Shown one piece after another: positions 539 to 20,854 of a DNA stretch of 47,356 bases (position 1 is the first letter of the stretch; each line of letters opens with the position of its first letter). The DNA is from a virus, in IMG/VR virus record IMGVR_UViG_3300032156_000919, positions 1-47,356 of that record, one strand, 5' to 3'. A program made the position numbers and the translations under genes. The notes beneath the pieces were generated by a model. It ran no database searches. It was not told the origin of the DNA and saw only the letters and a program-made list of their open reading frames with translations.

Positions 539-1759
539 ATGAGCGATCCGCGAGTTGAAGTACTGCCCATCGAACAAGGGGCGACTACCGACCTCGGCAA
601 TGTGAATAAGCATACAGTCCGGGGCGGTGCGTTGTTGGAGAATTCGCTCCGCAAGCGCGGCGCATTCAGGTCTATTGCATCGGCGGGGAAGGGCGTAGAA
701 GTCCCTGTGACCTATGCCGGAAATTATACGTTGGAGAAGGCGGTTGAGGCTGGATTCAAGGAGATTGTGAACGTCCATGTTCGAGGGGATCAACTTGTGA
801 ATGTAGTGCGTGACGATCTGACCCCAGGAAGTCCCGAGGCGATTGCGTTGGGATTGGAGGACAACGAGAGCGCGGCGAAGTCGTACAGCCCCGACCTCGA
901 CATCCTGGCGGCGTTGGCGGCGGGGGATGATGCGATACTGGCGGCGCTGCGGAAAGAGGATAAGGTGTTCGGCGGGATGCTCACCGGAATGGGATTAAAA
1001 GATGCGGGCAAGGATGTGCCTCTAGACACGGACAGGGGAGGCGAGCTTGCCGAAAAGTGGAAAACTAAAACCGGGCAATTGTGGGAGCTAAAAGATAGCC
1101 GCTTATTTATTGGGGATTGCACACTTAAGGAAAACGTAACCGCTTTGATTGGCGACAATAAGTGCGGTGCGTGCGTGACTGATTCGCCCTATGGAATAAA
1201 CCGTGAAGGCATAGAGAATGATGACCCCGAAGGATTGCGAAAACTGTTTGATAGTTGCCTTGCGAATATGCCAATAGAAAACGGTGCAATTATCAATTTT
1301 CAATCACCGCGATTGTTTCCAGAATGGCTTGATGCAATTAGAGCGGCGGGGCATAAATTTGAAAGAATGATTTGGATGTATAAGCCGAATGATGTTTGCT
1401 ATCCCTGGCAAGGATGGCTTCAGACTTCTGAAGCCATCCTTGTATCGTCCATCGGGAAACCCGCATTTGTGAAGGTTGATCCATACGCCCATGATACCTA
1501 TACGTCGAACTGGAATAATGAAACAAAGGGAAAGGTAGACGGATGGCATGGAAGTATAAAACCTCTGCCTCTTATTCAAGACCTTGTTTCAAGAGTTGGT
1601 GGTGATGTTTACGAACCATTCGCCGGGTCTGGTACTACAATAATCGCGGCGCACAATTTGGGGCGGCGATGTTTTGCAATGGAAATATCAGAGGAGTATT
1701 CAGCAATTATTCTGGAGCGCTTTTATCAAGCAACCGGTATCATGCCGGAGATGATATAA
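539..1759 (+). CDS. ParB-like domain / DNA methyltransferase fusion
   Basis: A 406-residue protein. Residues 1 to about 95 look like a ParB/sulfiredoxin-type N-terminal domain, a pairing common in phage methyltransferases next to terminases. Residues about 180-406 are an amino-methyltransferase: the catalytic motif IV appears as TDSPYGI (about 213-219), a D-x-PY variant, and the AdoMet-binding motif I as PFAGSGTT (about 360). It would methylate an exocyclic amino group (adenine N6 or cytosine N4) in phage DNA. Likely roles are protection from host restriction or marking DNA before packaging, since terminase genes follow. There is no normal ribosome-binding site because the transcript is probably leaderless. 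No partner restriction enzyme is visible. Confidence 0.85.
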   Translation: MSDPRVEVLPIEQGATTDLGNVNKHTVRGGALLENSLRKRGAFRSIASAGKGVEVPVTYAGNYTLEKAVEAGFKEIVNVHVRGDQLVNVVRDDLTPGSPEAIALGLEDNESAAKSYSPDLDILAALAAGDDAILAALRKEDKVFGGMLTGMGLKDAGKDVPLDTDRGGELAEKWKTKTGQLWELKDSRLFIGDCTLKENVTALIGDNKCGACVTDSPYGINREGIENDDPEGLRKLFDSCLANMPIENGAIINFQSPRLFPEWLDAIRAAGHKFERMIWMYKPNDVCYPWQGWLQTSEAILVSSIGKPAFVKVDPYAHDTYTSNWNNETKGKVDGWHGSIKPLPLIQDLVSRVGGDVYEPFAGSGTTIIAAHNLGRRCFAMEISEEYSAIILERFYQATGIMPEMI

Positions 1760-1817
1760 TAAAGTTGCCCGCAACGCGTTAACGTCCGGGCAATGACCAT
1801 AGCATAGAGGTGCTACG
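1752..1817 (+). promoter_or_regulatory. Extended -10 promoter and hairpin leader of the HNH gene
   Basis: TGATATAAT (1752-1760) overlaps the stop codon of the upstream methyltransferase. The 57-base leader can form a stem TTGCCCG (1765-1771) with CGGGCAA (1787-1793) and a second hairpin TAGCA/TGCTA (1800-1804 with 1811-1815) next to the ATG. It does not fold like the knotted leaders at 15.5 and 20.1 kb. Confidence 0.5.
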
Positions 1818-2806: not shown

Positions 2807-4124
2807 GTTTCATACGCCCATTCTCACAGAAGAAACGCTACGGGAGTTCGTGCGCCTGGCTTGGGGCGTCTCATTCCCAGATGTAAAAGTATGCCCGAAT
2901 CATTCTACGCCATGGAAAATTTTCGCGGATGCTTACTTTGCGCGGTACCCAGTAATTGTGTTGCACGGTTCGCGAGGGTTCGCCGGGAAGTCTTTTTTAT
3001 TGTCCACCCTGGGCCTGACTGAGGCCGTGACGTTGGGAGCTGATGTGAACATTCTAGGGGGTTCTGGCGAACAATCCCGGCGCGTACTCGACCACATGCG
3101 TGACAGATGGGCGTTCGAGGGTGCACCGGCCCACATGCTGACCGGGGAGGCGCGCACGGAGACACGCTTGACGAATGGTGCGACCATTGAAGCTCTGATG
3201 GCATCACAGGCCAGCGTCAGAGGATCCCATCCCGCCCGTTTTAGAGGTGATGAAATTGACGAAATGGACTTGTCCATCCTGGATGCGGCAATGGGCCAGG
3301 CAATGGAACAAAAAGGCGTCAAGGCGCAGACGGTATTATCCAGCACCAGGCAATATTCAGACGGGACAATGGCCGAAGTTATGAAGCGTGCCGCCGAAAG
3401 GAATTGGCCTATCCACGAAATTTGCTACCGCGAAAATTTACAACCACACGGCTGGTTGTCACAAGCATCGGTTGATCAGAAATTTGGCGAGATCACTGAA
3501 GCCATGCGCCTGGTTGAATACGAATTGCAGGAACCATCGCCGGAAAGCCGTGCAATTCAACCCGCCGCCGTGGAAGATTGCTTTGATAAATCGCTTGGCG
3601 TCTTCGAGGGCGCGGCGCACGAGTACATCGAGATCGAGCCGCCTGTCGAGGGTATGAGTTATGCGACTGGCGCGGATTGGGCGCGCGCAAAGGATTGGAC
3701 GGTTATTACGACAATCAGAACAGATGCGCGCCCGATGCAGGTGGTGGCGTGGGAACGAACGGGTCGGCTGGACTGGCCGGTGATGATTACGAGATACACC
3801 GATCGGCGCAAACGCTATCCTGGCTCCGGCCTGCATGATACGACCGGGCTGGGGGATGTGGTGCAGTCCTACGTTGGCGAAGGGGGGATGACTTTGGTTG
3901 GACAGGCGCGGGCCGATCTGCTCACTGAATATATCGCTGCAATCGAGCGGCGCGAGTTGAAGTACCCGATGATCCGCTATGCCTACAACGAACACAAGTA
4001 CGCCTCACGCGAGGATGTGTACGCGGGCGGGAGTGTGCATCATCTACCAGATAGTATCTGTGCGGGTGCGCTGGCATGGAAGGCGGCGCGGAGCGGCGGC
4101 TGGTCACGCGGGCCGGGGAGTTGA
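2790..4124 (+). CDS. Terminase large subunit
   Basis: A 444-residue packaging motor ATPase and nuclease. Walker A is GSRGFAGKS (residues 60-68) and Walker B is FRGDEIDE (about 151-158), with the acidic pair expected for ATP hydrolysis. A C-terminal RNase H-like nuclease begins near ATGADWARAKDW (about 290), with a further Asp in HDTTGLGD. Length matches TerL proteins. It translocates DNA through the portal encoded next and cuts it. The start overlaps the upstream gene. It is the last gene of its operon; a promoter and hairpin follow before the portal. Confidence 0.92.
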   Translation: MTKLHKFHTPILTEETLREFVRLAWGVSFPDVKVCPNHSTPWKIFADAYFARYPVIVLHGSRGFAGKSFLLSTLGLTEAVTLGADVNILGGSGEQSRRVLDHMRDRWAFEGAPAHMLTGEARTETRLTNGATIEALMASQASVRGSHPARFRGDEIDEMDLSILDAAMGQAMEQKGVKAQTVLSSTRQYSDGTMAEVMKRAAERNWPIHEICYRENLQPHGWLSQASVDQKFGEITEAMRLVEYELQEPSPESRAIQPAAVEDCFDKSLGVFEGAAHEYIEIEPPVEGMSYATGADWARAKDWTVITTIRTDARPMQVVAWERTGRLDWPVMITRYTDRRKRYPGSGLHDTTGLGDVVQSYVGEGGMTLVGQARADLLTEYIAAIERRELKYPMIRYAYNEHKYASREDVYAGGSVHHLPDSICAGALAWKAARSGGWSRGPGS

Positions 4125-12516: not shown

Positions 12517-14109
12517 ATGCCCGACGTTGGACGCAAACCACCGGACGAGAATCACACTCAATCGGTTTTATTTTGGAAAACCGCTGATTGGACGAAGGCG
12601 TCCAGCAAGAAATGGTGCAAGGATCATGATTACTACACGGACGGCCTGGACGAGACCGATAAACTCTTTCGATGGCGCCAATATGATCCAGATGATGATA
12701 AATACCGTTACCGCCAAAAGGTGATCGAAAAGAAAAATGGCGAACCATCCATTGCCTTGGTACTGGCGTTCAAAAAAGGAAACCAGATGATAACTAAACT
12801 GGATACTTTGGTAAACAGTTTCGTTACTACCCTACGTGGTCTGTTCCTCGGGGAACAGGCTGTGTCTATGCCGAATGTCTACCAACTTGTCTACGCCGAA
12901 CTTGATAAGCAGATGCAGGCGGACAATGTTTATCGCGCTTTGGTGGACGTGTACCTGGATGGCGCTTCGATGTTCGCCGTCTTTGCGATGAACGGGTTGC
13001 TCTACAAGGCGGACATCATGCTCGCCTCTGGCGGCGTTGTGATGGGCGATCCTGTGCAAGTCGAGATCCAATATGCCCCGGTTGCACAGTCGCTCAAGAC
13101 CTTGCGCCAGGCGGACGGGCAATACCGCTGGTTCGCGTTTCCAGCTGCTACGGCGGTGCTAAACCGCTCTGGCGAATTGGATAGCCGCCAATTGTTTGAG
13201 AGCTTCGTCAAACGCATCGAAGATGGCGCACCGTATCCCTACTTGACGTTCTATCACGTAGGCGAGGCGATCAAACTCGGCCTGGCCGATTACGTTGCGG
13301 TGGATGGTTACACTCTCCTGATGTCCGGCCTTTGGGACGCCGAAGCATTGCCCCAGGCCGTGCGCCAAGCCATCGAAAACGATCCTGATTACTACGGGAT
13401 CAGCATTGGTTATTTCTACCAGCCCGAAACTAAAGAACGGTTGCAGGTTGGTGAAGGTATCACAATTCCCGTCTACACGGACGGTATCCTGGTCGAGGCT
13501 AGTATCTTGGCTGAGCAGGACGCCTCCTGTTTGTTCACGGGAGCATACACGGAAGGAGTAAATCGTATGAACAAGAAAGCTAAAGACGAACTGGAAAAGA
13601 TCGTTGCTGGCAACCCTGAACTCGAAGCCCAGGTCGCGGAACTGGAGAAGCACGTGGATGAAGTCAACGCGTCCACTGAGGGATTGATCCGGCGCGAGAA
13701 GGAAACGCCAGAACCGCCCCCGGATACGAATGTTTTCCCCGAGCCTGTTGTTGAGCCGGAACCAGTTGCCTCGCCCGCCGAACTCATCCTCGATCAGGAG
13801 GGGATGGAGGCCTTGACTGAGCGTGTGTCCGGCAAAATTATGCCCGAAATGGCAGAATTCCGCACTTCTCATGCGCGGGTATTGGCAGACCTTACTGAAG
13901 CGGTTGACAAACTTACTGCCCGCGTCGCGGAACTGGAGAAGCCGCTGGCCGAGACCGTCCAGCAAGCGCTCCAAGACATGCCGCGCAACCAAGTGAAGGT
14001 TGTATATCGCCCCACTCTACGCCAGGCGGAACAGCCTGAAACCCAAGTATCCTCTGAAGATGTTGCTCAGGAAACCCTGGCAAACCTTCAAGCAGGAAAG
14101 GAGAAATAG
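12517..14109 (+). CDS. Prohead protease / scaffold protein
   Basis: About 530 residues, starting at the ATG 6 bases after TTAGGAG. A leaderward TTG at 12481 is in frame but lies inside the terminator stem, so it is unlikely. Residues about 265-345 match the HK97-type capsid maturation protease region: a DYYGISIGYFYQ strand, then IPVYTDGILVEASILAEQDAS, like the IPVFTEG..EISVLP segment of that family. The C-terminal 180 residues are acidic and coiled-coil (LEAQVAELEKHVDEV, VDKLTARVAELEKPL), as expected for a scaffold. It should shape the procapsid and then cleave the scaffold. It sits immediately upstream of the major capsid gene. Confidence 0.75.
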   Translation: MPDVGRKPPDENHTQSVLFWKTADWTKASSKKWCKDHDYYTDGLDETDKLFRWRQYDPDDDKYRYRQKVIEKKNGEPSIALVLAFKKGNQMITKLDTLVNSFVTTLRGLFLGEQAVSMPNVYQLVYAELDKQMQADNVYRALVDVYLDGASMFAVFAMNGLLYKADIMLASGGVVMGDPVQVEIQYAPVAQSLKTLRQADGQYRWFAFPAATAVLNRSGELDSRQLFESFVKRIEDGAPYPYLTFYHVGEAIKLGLADYVAVDGYTLLMSGLWDAEALPQAVRQAIENDPDYYGISIGYFYQPETKERLQVGEGITIPVYTDGILVEASILAEQDASCLFTGAYTEGVNRMNKKAKDELEKIVAGNPELEAQVAELEKHVDEVNASTEGLIRREKETPEPPPDTNVFPEPVVEPEPVASPAELILDQEGMEALTERVSGKIMPEMAEFRTSHARVLADLTEAVDKLTARVAELEKPLAETVQQALQDMPRNQVKVVYRPTLRQAEQPETQVSSEDVAQETLANLQAGKEK

Positions 14110-15453: not shown

Positions 15454-15484
15454 AATAGGGGAGGCGCAAACGCCTCCCCTATTT
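15454..15484 (+). terminator. Intrinsic terminator after the major capsid gene
   Basis: A stem of 11 bp, TAGGGGAGGCG (15456-15466) with CGCCTCCCCTA (15471-15481), tetraloop CAAA, extended by A-T pairs and followed by TTTAT. The same TAGGGGAGG arm is used in the hairpin at 26217. Confidence 0.85.
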
Positions 15485-15485
15485 A

Positions 15486-15494
15486 TGGTATAAT
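15486..15494 (+). promoter_or_regulatory. Extended -10 promoter of the GIY-YIG gene
   Basis: TGGTATAAT directly after the capsid terminator. It resets transcription for the homing endonuclease and glycan genes. No TTGACA-like -35 is present, as is usual for extended -10 promoters. Confidence 0.6.
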
Positions 15495-15500
15495 GAAAGC

Positions 15501-15599
15501 GCTAGGGAGTGGCGCTTTTATTTTGCCAATACAAGGCCGTTGTTTACACCAGCGCTCGATTCCCTAGCAGGATCAGGCAAAATGGTAGACAACGGCCTT
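15501..15599 (+). ncRNA. Knotted leader RNA, copy 1 (upstream of GIY-YIG gene)
   Basis: Four pairings occur in the order A-D-B-C-D'-A'-B'-C'. A: 15501-15508 with 15561-15568 (8 bp). D: 15511-15516 with 15551-15556 (6 bp, one G-U). B: 15521-15527 with 15576-15582 (7 bp). C: 15533-15547 with 15585-15599 (15 bp, one G-U). D nests in A, while A/D, B and C cross each other. The same order and nearly the same spacing occur at 20136-20233 with different bases. It starts about 12 bases after the -10 box and ends 19 bases before the ATG. Role unknown: a cis-regulator, ribozyme-like element or endonuclease cofactor are all possible. Confidence 0.7.
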
Positions 15600-15618
15600 A
15601 TGTTAATCAGAGGCAAAA

Positions 15619-16302
15619 ATGGACAACTGCGGCGTCTATGAAATCATAAACTTGGTAAATAATCATCGTTATATAGGTTCATCATGTGACGTTATGGCTC
15701 GCTGGCAAAGACATCAAAAAGCGTTGAGAAAAGGCAATCATCATAGTCGGTATTTGCAACGCGCATGGAATCTTTGGGGAGAGAAGAATTTCAAACTTCT
15801 GTTCCTGCTTCAATGTGACCGAAAGGTGCGATTAGAACGAGAACAGGAATTTTTCGCGATTCATCATCCTGAATATAATGTATCTCCATACGCCACAGGT
15901 GGAGCCGCTCCCGGTTCTGGCAAAGGCCATCATATAATGACGGAAGAAATTCTTAAGAAATTATCCGATTCGCATAGGGGTCAAAAAGGTCGCCCGATTA
16001 CGCCAGAACATAGAGCAAAAATAAACGAAGGAATAAGAAATAATCGCAAATATCCTGAGCATGTTTCAGAACAGGCACGCGCAAATATGATAGCAGCCCA
16101 GAGAAAACGAAAGGAAAAAGGAGTATCAGACGAATATCGCGCCGCGTTATTCGCCAAGTTGTCCGCTCTCCGCAAAGGGAAACCAGGCCATCCAAATTCT
16201 CCCGAAACGCGCGCTAAAATATCTGCTGCCCTCATGGGTCATCCTAATTACTGCCCGAGTAGAGATAAAAAAACGGGGCGTTTTGTTGGAGAATATCCAT
16301 GA
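15619..16302 (+). CDS. GIY-YIG homing endonuclease
   Basis: A 227-residue protein. GVYEI (residues 5-8) and RYIGSS (17-22) form the GIY-YIG catalytic core, with further conserved positions in the helix WQRHQKALRKG and a Glu in LEREQEFF. The C-terminal half has several NUMOD3-like DNA-binding repeats (LSDSHRGQKGRPITPEHRAKI, LSALRKGKPGHPNSPETRAKI). It would nick or cut an intron-free or gene-free allele to spread itself. It is more A/T-rich than its neighbours, lies between the capsid terminator and the glycan operon, and its stop overlaps the next ATG. Confidence 0.9.
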   Translation: MDNCGVYEIINLVNNHRYIGSSCDVMARWQRHQKALRKGNHHSRYLQRAWNLWGEKNFKLLFLLQCDRKVRLEREQEFFAIHHPEYNVSPYATGGAAPGSGKGHHIMTEEILKKLSDSHRGQKGRPITPEHRAKINEGIRNNRKYPEHVSEQARANMIAAQRKRKEKGVSDEYRAALFAKLSALRKGKPGHPNSPETRAKISAALMGHPNYCPSRDKKTGRFVGEYP

Positions 16303-16958
16303 ACATCACCCGCGCCCGCGATTTATTACTCCCAAAGGCTCTTTATGAATTAGACATCCAGCCATATATCCCCATCTTTGAAAAAATGTATACCCTGGCT
16401 CGCCCGCCCTTCCTGGCGATGATGAATCAACTCGCGCAGTGTTGTGAGAATGGCGAGGTCTACTTGGAAGTTGGCGCCTTCCTGGGCGGGTCTCTCATCG
16501 GAACGCTACTGGGCAATTCTGTCAGAGCAATTTCCATTGAGAACTTTTCAGAGAGGCCGGATAGCAACTTGGAAATGTTGAAGGCGAACACGGCAGCATT
16601 CGGGGTGCAGGACAGGATCGAATTCAACGAGATAGACTTCCATAAATATTTCAAGCAGGAACACCCCGGTCTGAAGATCGGCCTATATTATTATGACGGC
16701 GCGCATGAAGAGTACAATACGCGGGACGGGCTAGAGCTGGGCTTCCCCTTCGTTGTGGAAGATGGCCTCATTGTCCTGGACGACCTGTTTTATCCCGACG
16801 TTGTTCTGGGCTTGAATCGCTTCCTGGGCGCTCACCCATTTGAGATGAAAATCTTATGTGCTATCAGTCCGGCGGAGGAGCTTCATAGCGATTGGTGGAA
16901 CGGAACGGTTGTCTTGCAAAAGAAAGCGGTCAGGTTGAATTGGGCGGTTAAAGGTTGA
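16299..16958 (+). CDS. Class I AdoMet-dependent methyltransferase
   Basis: A 219-residue enzyme resembling the Methyltransf_24/macrocin-O-methyltransferase group. YLEVGAFLGGSLIGTLL (about 55-71) is the AdoMet-binding loop, FNEIDFHKYF a second motif, and YYYDGAHEEYNTRDGLEL and LIVLDDLF the metal/acceptor side with the Asp residues typical of these O-methyltransferases. Such enzymes methylate sugars in surface glycans. It is the first gene of the glycan operon and starts inside the stop of the GIY-YIG gene. Two bases separate it from a glycosyltransferase. Confidence 0.8.
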   Translation: MNITRARDLLLPKALYELDIQPYIPIFEKMYTLARPPFLAMMNQLAQCCENGEVYLEVGAFLGGSLIGTLLGNSVRAISIENFSERPDSNLEMLKANTAAFGVQDRIEFNEIDFHKYFKQEHPGLKIGLYYYDGAHEEYNTRDGLELGFPFVVEDGLIVLDDLFYPDVVLGLNRFLGAHPFEMKILCAISPAEELHSDWWNGTVVLQKKAVRLNWAVKG

Positions 16959-16959
16959 G

Positions 16960-17643
16960 ATGAATATCCTACCGATTCTAATGTGCCGCAACGAGGAACG
17001 GTGGATCGAGAGGGTGCTCACGCCCCTCGCAAACGTTTTTCCCCGCGTGCTCGTAGCAGATACGGGTTCGACAGATTCAACCATCGAGCAAATATTGAAA
17101 GTCCCGAAAGTCCAACTAATACGGTATCCCAACTCAACAATGGCGGAGGTGGGTCTCATCCGGGGGGCTTTACAAAGATTCGCCAAAGAACTCGGCGCTA
17201 CTCACGCGTTTATGTGTGATGCGGATGAGCTTTATCCTACCAGTTATTTGCAATATATTTATGACAACCCGATGCCGGAGGGGAAAATTTGTGGGTTCAC
17301 AACCGGTCTGGACGTGGCCGAACTCCCGAACGGGGAAATATGGAAATTCGACTCGGGGGCAAGTCGGGATGCGGTCTATTCCGTAGATACCACATGGCAC
17401 GGGTCGTATCCGTTCGAGGGCCACAGTTCGTTTCAGACAGACCATCCCGAATTGAATTATTACTGGCCGTCGCTTCTTCCGAACCATCATTACTACCACC
17501 TGCATCAGACGCGGCGCAGCAGCAAGGATGCGGATGTATATTTGCGGCTAGAAAAGAAATACAAATTTTCCATGCTGGATAGGCCGGACAAGAAGCCAGT
17601 AGAGTTCTGGCTCAAATCAGAAGCGGATTACGTTGATTCATGA
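16960..17643 (+). CDS. GT2-like glycosyltransferase
   Basis: A 227-residue protein of GT-A type. The N-terminal MCRNEERWIERVL and VADTGSTDSTIEQI are typical of family 2 glycosyltransferases, and MCDADELYP supplies the D-x-D metal motif that holds the nucleotide sugar. The C-terminus has a His-rich segment (LLPNHHYYHLHQTRR). It lacks membrane helices, so it probably acts in the cytoplasm on a soluble or protein acceptor. It overlaps the next gene by four bases (ATGA). Confidence 0.85.
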   Translation: MNILPILMCRNEERWIERVLTPLANVFPRVLVADTGSTDSTIEQILKVPKVQLIRYPNSTMAEVGLIRGALQRFAKELGATHAFMCDADELYPTSYLQYIYDNPMPEGKICGFTTGLDVAELPNGEIWKFDSGASRDAVYSVDTTWHGSYPFEGHSSFQTDHPELNYYWPSLLPNHHYYHLHQTRRSSKDADVYLRLEKKYKFSMLDRPDKKPVEFWLKSEADYVDS

Positions 17644-19490
17644 AACTCTTTGTAGCGAGTAATGGACGCGGAGGAAAAGGCGGCGGCGTGCGCTCAGTCA
17701 TGGATGCGCACGAAAAGTTACTGCGCGCAAAGGGCGTGGAATATGTGGACAACGAAAAAGCTGCCGACCTGGTTATTGTTCACGCAATGGGTGCGCCCTC
17801 TTCTCGTCGCACGGACGTTTATCATTCACACGGTTTTTATCCGACCGCGTTCGAGGACTGGGGAGATCGTTATAACTCAGTCAATCAAAGCCTCGTAAAT
17901 TATGTGATGACCGCGCGCAGCGTTGTTTCGGTAAGCGAACAAGCGGCGGAGGTCATGCGCAGGGATATGCACAGAAACCCATTGGTGATTCGCAACGGTG
18001 TGGACTTCCAGCAGATCCAACAGGGCGGTAAGCCGGGGGGGTATATTCTATGGCCGAAATTATCTATTAGTCCGACCTGCGATCCCGCGCCGTTGAAATG
18101 GTTGGCGGATCATACGTCCTACCCGTTCGCGTCAATAGCGAACGTGGCTGATAATATCAAAAGTTTTGAGGCTCTACCTCAAGAAGATTTTTTAGCACTG
18201 CTCAAGAACTGTTCTATCTACCTCGGAATAACCCGCGAGAACAATCCAATAGCCGAAATGGAATCAATGGCGTGTGGTCTGCCAGTTGTCGGGTTTAATT
18301 GGGGCTTCCACCGGGAATGGTTGACGAACGGGTACGGTTGCGAATTGGTAGAACCCGGTGACTTGGATGGATTATCCCAAGCCATAACGAAAGTATTGGG
18401 AAATTGGAAAGTTTATCACGAACAGGCGCTTGACTTTGCCCAAAAGAACTTTGGGTGGGACGAACCTATCCAGCAGATTTACGGGTTATATCAGTCCCTT
18501 CTTGAGCCTGCGCCCGTCCTGAGCGTTTCTGTGGTCATCCCGCTATACAATTATGCCAAGTGGATCGGTGAGGCGGTTCAGTCTGCGAAGGATGCGCAGC
18601 CAGCCGAAATCATTGTGGTGGACGATGCCAGTACCGACAATCCTACCATTCCAGAGGGCGTAAAACTCATCCGATTTGATACTAACCAGGGTGTAGCCGT
18701 TGCGCGCAATGTGGGAATATCACAGGCGAAAGGCGATTTGATCATCTGTCTGGACGCGGATGATAAATTGACCCCGATTGCTATTCGGCGCCTTGTCCCC
18801 AAGTTTACCAACCCTCGGGTGGGGATCGCCTTTGCTCCGATAAGTTTGATTGGCGAAAACGGAGTAATGTCTCGTCACCGTTGGTTTGAGGAACAGTACA
18901 GTTATTCCAGGCAACGAACCGGGAATAATAATTGCCCATCTTGTGCGATGTTCCGTAAGCGCGCATGGGAACAAGCAGGTGGCTATCGTACATACGAGAA
19001 ACCGGCCGAGGATGCTGGACTCTGGTTGCGTATTGCATCACAGGGCTGGAAGGTGGAAAACATTGGCGGTGAGTCAATGTTACATTATCGTTTTCACCAT
19101 AAAGTAAGTGAGTTTAGGGCGGGAAGCGAAACACAACTCTCCCCGCTGTTTGATTGGTGGAAAAGTAATCGTGCCTGGTCATATCGCAGCTCTGGCGTTG
19201 GCGAACTCGTGCAAATGTATGATTGCCCGCAAGTAAGTTTTGTCCTTGTGTACCGGGTCCAGGACGAACTTGACTTTATCCGTACCCTGGATAGCATCGA
19301 GGGGATGACGGCAATCGAATGGGAAATCTGTGCATTAGGGACACCACCTCCGTTGATTTTGAGTGGTTGGCCTTTCGTGCGCTGGAACAAGGAACCAACC
19401 TCCCCAACCCAGGTTTATCTTGAGGCGGGAGACGTGTTGAATGATGAAGAATGGGGTAAAATTATGGAGCGAAGGGAATTCCCCGCATGA
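17640..19490 (+). CDS. GT4-GT2 fused glycosyltransferase
   Basis: A 616-residue protein with two sugar-transfer domains. Residues 1 to about 285 are GT-B/GT4-like: VYHSHGF, IRNGVDFQQI and the ENNPIAEMESMACGLPVV sugar-nucleotide motif. Residues about 295-510 are GT2-like: VSVVIPLYNYAKWIGEAV, IIVVDDASTDNPTI, ICLDADDKL (D-x-D) and an EDAGLWLRIASQG segment. The C-terminal 100 residues are unassigned. The fusion should add two sugars in succession. It overlaps both neighbours by four bases, so the set is co-translated. Confidence 0.88.
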   Translation: MKLFVASNGRGGKGGGVRSVMDAHEKLLRAKGVEYVDNEKAADLVIVHAMGAPSSRRTDVYHSHGFYPTAFEDWGDRYNSVNQSLVNYVMTARSVVSVSEQAAEVMRRDMHRNPLVIRNGVDFQQIQQGGKPGGYILWPKLSISPTCDPAPLKWLADHTSYPFASIANVADNIKSFEALPQEDFLALLKNCSIYLGITRENNPIAEMESMACGLPVVGFNWGFHREWLTNGYGCELVEPGDLDGLSQAITKVLGNWKVYHEQALDFAQKNFGWDEPIQQIYGLYQSLLEPAPVLSVSVVIPLYNYAKWIGEAVQSAKDAQPAEIIVVDDASTDNPTIPEGVKLIRFDTNQGVAVARNVGISQAKGDLIICLDADDKLTPIAIRRLVPKFTNPRVGIAFAPISLIGENGVMSRHRWFEEQYSYSRQRTGNNNCPSCAMFRKRAWEQAGGYRTYEKPAEDAGLWLRIASQGWKVENIGGESMLHYRFHHKVSEFRAGSETQLSPLFDWWKSNRAWSYRSSGVGELVQMYDCPQVSFVLVYRVQDELDFIRTLDSIEGMTAIEWEICALGTPPPLILSGWPFVRWNKEPTSPTQVYLEAGDVLNDEEWGKIMERREFPA

Positions 19491-20128
19491 GAATTGCTGT
19501 TCTAATTCCGACATTCTTCCGTCCCGAGGGCTTGCGGCGGGTATTGCGGTCGCTTAAAGAAACCTCTCCTGACGTACGCGCGGTTGTCGTTGCAGAATCG
19601 GACGATGAACAGGCCCCGCTTATTACAAGTGAATTCAATGCGACTTTCGTTGTGTGCTTGCAACCAAGACAAGGAACAGTGCCAAACTGGAATTTGGCTC
19701 TCGCCACTGAGCCAAATTATGACGCCTATTTTCTCGGAGCAGATGACCTTTATTTTACTCCCGGGTGGTTGGAAGAAACCCTAAAGATTCTTGAGAGTAT
19801 TGGAGGATCTGGTTTGATTCAAATCAGCAATTTCGGTCATTATCTAATGACGCGCGATTTTATCATCGAACATCATGGCGGAGTAATGGTTATTCCGCAT
19901 TACAAGGGGTGGTGCCCTGACATTGAGGCGATCACCAGGGCGCGCCGCGCTGGCAAATTTGGTTATGCTCCGAATGCGATAGTTGTCCACGAATGGCGCG
20001 GGTCGGCCTCGAACAATTATGCCGTGGAGGGTTGGGCGCTTCTTGAACAGCGACGCGCGGCCGGATGGGCTGATGATTTTGAGCCAATTTTGAAAGAGAA
20101 GTTTCCAGGACGAGCGAACGTGGTATAA
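19487..20128 (+). CDS. GT2-like glycosyltransferase
   Basis: A 213-residue GT-A protein: AVLIPTFFRPEGLRRVL, then NWNLALATEPNYDAYFLGADDLYF, whose GADD stands in for the metal-binding D-x-D. The C-terminal HEWRGSASNNYAVEGW resembles the acceptor side of bacteriophage and capsule glycosyltransferases. It overlaps the fused enzyme upstream by four bases. Its stop codon TAA forms part of the TATAAT box that starts the next homing-endonuclease unit. Confidence 0.8.
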   Translation: MRIAVLIPTFFRPEGLRRVLRSLKETSPDVRAVVVAESDDEQAPLITSEFNATFVVCLQPRQGTVPNWNLALATEPNYDAYFLGADDLYFTPGWLEETLKILESIGGSGLIQISNFGHYLMTRDFIIEHHGGVMVIPHYKGWCPDIEAITRARRAGKFGYAPNAIVVHEWRGSASNNYAVEGWALLEQRRAAGWADDFEPILKEKFPGRANVV

Positions 20129-20129
20129 T
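20121..20129 (+). promoter_or_regulatory. Extended -10 promoter of the second HNH gene
   Basis: TGGTATAAT, overlapping the stop of the glycosyltransferase gene exactly as the promoter at 1752 overlaps the methyltransferase stop. Confidence 0.6.
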
Positions 20130-20135
20130 AAAGTC

Positions 20136-20233
20136 GTCGAAGGAATTGGGTGTTTTTTATTTGCCTAATAAATAGCCGTCTTTTATGCTAGAACGCCCGT
20201 CCTTCGACAGATAGGCAAGCATAGAAGGCGGCT
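20136..20233 (+). ncRNA. Knotted leader RNA, copy 2 (upstream of HNH gene)
   Basis: Same pairing order as at 15501-15599. A: 20136-20144 with 20200-20208 (9 bp). D: 20148-20154 with 20192-20198 (7 bp, one G-U). B: 20161-20167 with 20212-20218 (7 bp). C: 20174-20189 with 20218-20233 (16 bp, two G-U). Primary sequence is not shared with copy 1, but stem lengths and linkers are alike, and wobble pairs point to selection on RNA rather than DNA. It begins 7 bases after a -10 box and ends 21 bases before the ATG. Confidence 0.7.
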
Positions 20234-20254
20234 GTTTGTTCTTGGAGAATTTGT

Positions 20255-20854
20255 ATGGCACAAACCTCAGAAGAGAGATTGGCAAAACAAAGATTATATT
20301 ACGTGTCTCACCGCGAAGAGACAGCAGCGCGAAGCAAAAGGTATCGTACGACTCACCACGAAGAATTATGTGAAAAGGCGAAAATTCGACGGCTAAAGAA
20401 TATAGATAAATACCGCGAGAAAAATAAACAATGGGGAAGAGACAATAGCGATAAAGTATCTGCTCGCCATAAAATATATAATCAAGAACATAAAGAAGAA
20501 TTATCGGCAAAAAGGAAAGCTTTTTACAGGGAACACGCAGAAGAAAAAAAGGCATATGCTAGGAGATATTCGAAAATTAATAGGCTCGCTATTCGTAAAA
20601 TGGCAATAGGTCATTATGGGGGAAAGTGCGCCTGCTGCGGAGAATCAACTTATGAATTTCTCTCAATAGATCACATAGATGGCGGCGGTAATAAACATAG
20701 AAAAGAAATAAACAGTAAAGGCGGATGGGCTTTCGCTACTTGGTTAAAAAAGAATGATTACCCTGAAGGTTTTCAGGTTTTATGTCATAATTGCAATATG
20801 GCTAAAGGATGTTATAGTAAATGTCCACATGAGGAAATGAGAAAAAATGCGTAA
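20255..20854 (+). CDS. HNH homing endonuclease with Lys/Arg-rich repeats
   Basis: A 199-residue protein. The first 120 residues are a highly charged repeated helix (Y-x-x-x-H-x-E-E pattern: YYVSHREETAARSKRY, YRTTHHEELCEKAKI, YNQEHKEELSAKRKAF), common in phage HNH proteins and probably used to follow DNA. The C-terminus has CACC, then SIDHIDGGGNKHRKEI and LCHNCNMAKG, the HNH nuclease with zinc cysteines. It is clearly A/T-rich against neighbours near 50 percent GC and sits inside the glycan operon, so it is a mobile insertion. It overlaps the next gene by eight bases. Confidence 0.88.
   Translation: MAQTSEERLAKQRLYYVSHREETAARSKRYRTTHHEELCEKAKIRRLKNIDKYREKNKQWGRDNSDKVSARHKIYNQEHKEELSAKRKAFYREHAEEKKAYARRYSKINRLAIRKMAIGHYGGKCACCGESTYEFLSIDHIDGGGNKHRKEINSKGGWAFATWLKKNDYPEGFQVLCHNCNMAKGCYSKCPHEEMRKNA

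Follow-up and report, generated by a model that had tools for sequence, protein, structure and literature searches.

What does it mean that two homing endonuclease genes of different families, carried by one phage, each stand behind an RNA leader with the same knotted arrangement of helices? The window, i.e. the whole stretch of 47,356 nucleotides that was analysed, is a 47-kb IMG/VR phage record, the genes of which include tail, terminase-like, methyltransferase and glycosyltransferase genes. An earlier note on this DNA had placed two knotted leaders in it, with helices in the order A-D-B-C-D'-A'-B'-C', and all of these helices were found. Copy 1 lies at 15501-15599 and copy 2 at 20136-20240, each adjoining an endonuclease gene on its 5' side, and in both the helices are joined by short linkers and enclosed between a -10 box and a ribosome site.

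The two leaders and the genes behind them

All features of the two loci are on the plus strand. Copy 1 is preceded by an extended -10 promoter (TGGTATAAT, 15486-15494), a part of the module kept in all four members of the leader family described below, and consists of helix A (15501-15510/15559-15568), helix D (15511-15516/15551-15556), helix B (15521-15527/15576-15582) and helix C (15533-15547/15585-15599). A Shine-Dalgarno-like AGAGG (15609-15613) lies outside the knot. In copy 2 the promoter (TGGTATAAT, 20121-20129) shares bases with the stop codon of the gene before it and is followed by helix A (20136-20144/20200-20208), helix D (20148-20154/20192-20198), helix B (20160-20167/20212-20219) and helix C (20171-20189/20218-20236, extendable to 23 bp); here, too, the Shine-Dalgarno sequence (GGAG, 20244-20247) is outside the knot. 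Promoters and ribosome sites were recognised by sequence, helices A and D of both copies and helix C of copy 2 by the topology descriptor and covariation, and helix B of copy 2 by helix search. In copy 2 helices B and C compete for two bases, which affects two pairs of B. The B strand of copy 1 has a second possible partner, GGCAAAA at the start codon, but this pairing is not conserved and was taken as chance. A terminator-like GC hairpin (AGGGGAGGCG...CGCCTCCCCT, then ATTT) is located at 15456-15481, between the preceding gene and the copy 1 promoter.

Copy 1 precedes a GIY-YIG homing endonuclease gene with NUMOD3 (15619-16302, ORF table; family confirmed by Pfam), the stop of which overlaps the start of the next gene. 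The gene behind copy 2 (20255-20854), which overlaps the next gene at its 3' end, encodes an HNH homing endonuclease. Its product had no Pfam match, but it matches PHROG HNH families and in tblastn is ~42-54 % identical to annotated phage HNH endonucleases over the HNH half. Scans against Pfam and PHROGs showed no domain common to the two enzymes and no RuvC+HNH or RuvC-type architecture, only small GIY-YIG and HNH proteins (ORFs of 199-227 aa). The tree of the GIY-YIG proteins was mostly unresolved, with the carriers of the knotted leader forming no visible clade, and no relatives of the GIY-YIG protein were confirmed by single-sequence search.

The -10 box had been placed 7-12 bases before stem A in the earlier note; the actual gap is 6 bases in both copies, and 5 and 3 bases in the other two members, each of the four having a TATAAT box 5' of helix A. 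The distance to the ATG, given as about 20 bases, was corrected to 19 and 18 bases after the end of helix C in copies 1 and 2, respectively, and is 13 and 11 bases in the other members. The ribosome sites lie 3' of helix C and are left unpaired by the knot. As transcription usually starts about 7 bases after the -10 box, the RNA is expected to begin on the first base of helix A or a few bases away from it, and its 5' end could retain 3-6 unpaired bases.

The topology descriptor scored 93.5 for copy 1 and 107 for copy 2, the next-best place in the window reaching 65.5. The top score in 140 dinucleotide shuffles of the window was 79.5, so that none reached 80, and the best unrelated match in 2.7 Mb of other DNA was a GC-rich repetitive stretch scoring 86. 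Unrelated inverted repeats mistaken for a knot are therefore already disfavoured and scarcely credible as an explanation: long helices alone are present in other phage leaders and the alignment used for counting was fitted by hand to the structure, but the shuffles fall far below both copies, homologues with compensatory changes were found and a structure-free model gave a significant match.

Shared sequence and covariation

The two copies had been reported to share almost no sequence, which did not hold. A core, TTTTATTT(T)GCC(T)AAYAnRnRGCCGTY, is common to the four members, and the pattern TTATTTN{0,1}GCCN{0,1}AATA occurs twice in the window, both times at the leaders, with no occurrence expected. 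A model built only on the sequences of the three GIY-YIG leaders recovered the HNH leader (20120-20247) with E=2e-13, and the similarity between the HNH leader and the GIY-YIG leaders begins at the -10 box and ends at the ribosome site. This match indicates that the HNH and GIY-YIG leaders are homologous, and common descent is the simpler reading than convergence.

The earlier note had made its proposal depend on further examples with covarying stems, and at least two were found among the IMG/VR pattern and protein matches listed. L050, on contig IMGVR_UViG_3300025000_000646, has a descriptor score of 101; L131 (the same as L266), on IMGVR_UViG_3300050030_000026, has a score of 109.5 and was first reached via its protein. 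Both precede GIY-YIG genes. The family thus comprises four members, the two in the window, L050 and L131, which all have the four-helix order with short linkers and lie directly 5' of endonuclease genes. BLASTN with copy 1 gave no match in phage records, and no knot was seen in thirty HNH relatives checked. A pattern scan of 84,980 species genomes yielded 58 loci, none of them genuine, and a model search of 99 sequences, nearly all of them whole IMG/VR records that carry an endonuclease or a leader locus, returned known members only. About 700 genomes of two phyla contained no member, a negative made weak by the coarse first look. As the RNA models held sequence without structure, more diverged members may have been missed. 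Rfam gave no match at any family's cut-off for the knotted leaders, with gathering and permissive thresholds, and no match to a group I intron core in the window.

Covariation was counted in a hand-set alignment of the paired cores only, in which 98.6 % of the cells pair. Both sides had changed in 14 of 36 pairs, compared to 6.6 in shuffles (none of 500 reached 14) and to 1-2 pairs in slid registers, but as the alignment was fitted to the structure and has only four rows, these counts lean towards the structure. The changes fell on helices A (4/8), D (3/7) and C (7/15), with none of the six pairs of helix B affected; B is almost letter-for-letter constant across the four members, with G-U variation only and no compensatory changes. 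One U-G pair in helix C is retained in all four. Support for A/D crossing C is good. Whether all three cross one another hinges on helix B, which is nearly invariant and shows no compensatory change. Of the mutually crossing three-stem knot described in the earlier note, the part formed by A/D and C is therefore backed by covariation, and the remainder relies on a helix that is invariant rather than covarying. All members have short and similar linkers as well as conserved single-stranded joints, in keeping with a core that folds as a unit. Compared by topology only, the leaders have the same crossing order of three helices as ABCABC pseudoknots. These 'pseudotrefoils' (topology class 1C) account for 51 RNA STRAND sequences, compared to 1688 with simple ABAB pseudoknots (PMC3390330).

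One homing site in three states, and leaders of other designs

Along most of its length the contig of L050 shares 93-98 % identity with IMGVR_UViG_3300025009_000235 (G004). In G004 the upstream tail gene runs directly into an apparent tape-measure gene, endonuclease and knot being absent at the site, and no knot was found anywhere in it by model search. In L050 the match to G004 breaks off a short way into the next gene; what follows is the promoter, the knot and the GIY-YIG gene, the right border of the insert being beyond the contig end. At the same junction L160 has a GIY-YIG gene ~62 % identical to that of L050, which has neither promoter nor leader and the start of which overlaps the upstream stop (TAATG). 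The homing site is thus seen with promoter, knot and endonuclease (L050, reverse strand ~13140-13560), empty (L440, in G004) and with an endonuclease without leader (L442, in L160). The empty site in G004 and the leaderless gene in L160 indicate that the leader, although it arrives as part of the cassette, is optional to the enzyme; this speaks against an obligate cofactor. The view in the earlier note that the RNA moves with, or has been recruited by, endonucleases of any family holds in that the structure is conserved by covariation, the leader is shared by descent across two families and it lies inside an inserted cassette in the one comparable phage. Overall, the interpretation given in that note is partly supported.

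The third endonuclease of the window, an HNH gene at 1818-2399, is preceded on the plus strand by a second, unrelated leader, made up of a hairpin at 1765-1793 (CCCGCAACG...CGTCCGGG, then AATGACC) behind a -10 box at 1755-1760. Its consensus is CCCCGCRACG-loop-CGTCCGGGG, CATGRYC and a small Shine-Dalgarno hairpin (window 1755-1817). In the window, L050/L118 and L119 its stem begins 4 bases after the -10 box. Besides the window, members are L050, L119, L396, L397, L399, L401, L404, L405, L408, L409, L412, L416, L419 and L421. The pattern of this type was met at 35 IMG/VR loci, about half of which look genuine; these lie mostly before HNH and GIY-YIG genes, and a few before integrases (L402, L410) or HTH genes. 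In phage records it precedes HNH endonucleases of Propionibacterium phage Anatole and Arthrobacter phage Pitbull, and, in Arthrobacter phages, also rightward operons whose genes are uncharacterised; the hairpin-type design is not confined to homing endonucleases. There was no Rfam match for it in the loci scanned. Both leader types occur on one contig in the window and in L050. On the reverse strand of L050 a 312-bp stretch (3301-3612), missing in the near-identical G004, ends just 5' of the second-type leader's -10 box.

Different pseudoknotted leaders were found directly before GIY-YIG genes in L184 (1382-1474, crossing helices of 8 and 19 bp) and L123 (1152-1228, helices of 10 and 15 bp), both with a promoter-like -10 just upstream and L184 with a -35 as well. 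Homing endonucleases thus repeatedly stand behind a structured leader with a promoter of its own, built in several unrelated ways, and with the second leader type the pattern exceeds a single case. Conserved sequences with inverted repeats are also known 5' of phage genes of cluster K mycobacteriophages, where the 13-bp SAS (GGGATAGGAGCCC) and the ESAS with 17-bp inverted repeats are start-associated in one phage cluster, stand before a subset of genes, are present or absent in homologues and have no known function (PMC3203893). The knotted leader is similarly optional in homologues, but SAS/ESAS have no knot and are closer to the second, hairpin type.

What the knotted leader may do

We tentatively favour, with slightly less than even confidence, a role of the knot as a cis-acting expression leader that is carried with homing endonucleases and protects the 5' end of their message. 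The mobile cassette would consist of promoter, knotted leader, ribosome site and endonuclease gene; between phage genes such a cassette cannot rely on local transcription, and so brings its own -10 promoter. With transcription starting at or next to helix A, the 5' end of the RNA would be locked in, or lie a few bases from, a compact fold in which A/D cross C with helix B at the junction, all helices presumably forming simultaneously and the downstream ribosome site staying free. The most likely effect would be to shield the message from 5'-end-dependent decay and to make its translation independent of the neighbourhood. A leader that folds independently of its neighbours would benefit a cassette in foreign surroundings. 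The second leader type, with its stem 4 bases 3' of the -10 box, points the same way. Base-paired 5' ends are known to stabilise bacterial mRNA, since RppH and RNase E require single-stranded 5' termini (reviewed in PMC3997798). It counts against 5'-end protection that the related gene of L160 lives without a leader and that the family has only four members. Furthermore, as a plain hairpin would protect the 5' end equally well, the conserved core (TTTA, AAYA and the U-G pair of helix C) asks for more than protection, and suggests a function beyond it. It is conceivable, but rather unlikely, that promoter and pseudotrefoil leader form a portable module swapped among unrelated endonuclease families and phages, in which the core is an active RNA, either a ribozyme or a switch sensing a ligand or protein, that times expression.

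We also regard as unlikely a conformational switch in which A/D and C form in turn, during transcription or on binding of a ligand or protein, and so toggle endonuclease expression. Pseudoknot-free folding, with MFE values of -46 to -54 kcal/mol for helix C compared to -35 to -47 kcal/mol for A/D, sets these helices against each other and predicts that they would compete if no knot forms, and conservation of the core nucleotides exceeds what a passive stem requires. However, the short, similar linkers and conserved joints are better suited to co-folding, and in the C-only state the start region, ribosome site included, was masked no more than with shuffled 5' strands. The latter result also leaves without support a translation block by ribosome-site masking as in T4. 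In phages T4 and Aeh1, I-TevI, I-TevII, I-TevIII, segB and mobE have ribosome-site hairpins that mask the site on read-through transcripts, the late promoter being placed so that late transcripts lack the hairpin (reviewed in PMC2988022). The knotted leaders resemble these in having a structured RNA just 5' of a free-standing or intron-encoded homing endonuclease, with a promoter near and a probable action in cis, but here the whole knot is 3' of the promoter, stem A following the -10 box by 3-6 bases, and it does not include the ribosome site.

An RNA acting in cis on RNA polymerase as a processive antiterminator, similar to put RNA and giving read-through into the phage operon, appears improbable. 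The leader does lie immediately 3' of a promoter, the terminator-like hairpin at 15456-15481 precedes copy 1, and both endonuclease genes run into the start of the gene that follows, so that transcripts may continue into the glycosyltransferase genes. HK022 put, however, consists of two stem-loops without a knot, and no downstream terminator in need of read-through was identified on casual inspection. Quite improbable, too, is a self-cleaving ribozyme that trims the endonuclease message or separates it from upstream transcripts. A compact fold of several pseudoknots with a conserved core at the 5' side of a mobile insert recalls the HDV-like ribozymes of retrotransposons, which have the same position, but no Rfam ribozyme matched, the helix order is unlike that of HDV (P1-P2-P3-P3'-P1'-P4-P4'-P2'), and the leader's own promoter leaves only a few bases upstream of the fold.

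A trans-acting RNA or endonuclease cofactor, e.g. the guide suggested in the earlier note, is very improbable: all four leaders adjoin endonuclease genes, and these belong to two families, but at the homing site of L050 a related GIY-YIG gene (that of L160) does without a leader, the two enzymes show no common domain or RuvC-type architecture in the family scans, a guide-sized stretch is absent between promoter and stem A, and leader homology stops at the ribosome site, as for a cis leader. The HEARO or omega RNA of IscB is likewise a structured RNA 5' of an HNH-containing ORF in a mobile element. It is a larger RNA with a guide function and is associated with a RuvC+HNH protein, unlike the leaders described here, which have no Rfam match and precede ORFs of 199-227 aa.

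Structured control of homing endonucleases is already known, and no description of the knotted leader was found in the literature searched, subscription papers being outside its reach; as far as could be tested, a homologous knotted leader across unrelated families is new. Descriptions of homing endonucleases usually stop at the enzyme gene. That a promoter and structured RNA are homologous between a GIY-YIG and an HNH gene implies that regulatory RNA parts can be swapped among unrelated selfish genes, and an RNA part seems to have been passed between unrelated mobile genes. The family packs a rare knot topology, three of its helices covarying, into ~100 bases, and offers a natural pair with and without the leader at one homing site. 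How selfish genes bring their own expression control thus becomes a directly testable question.
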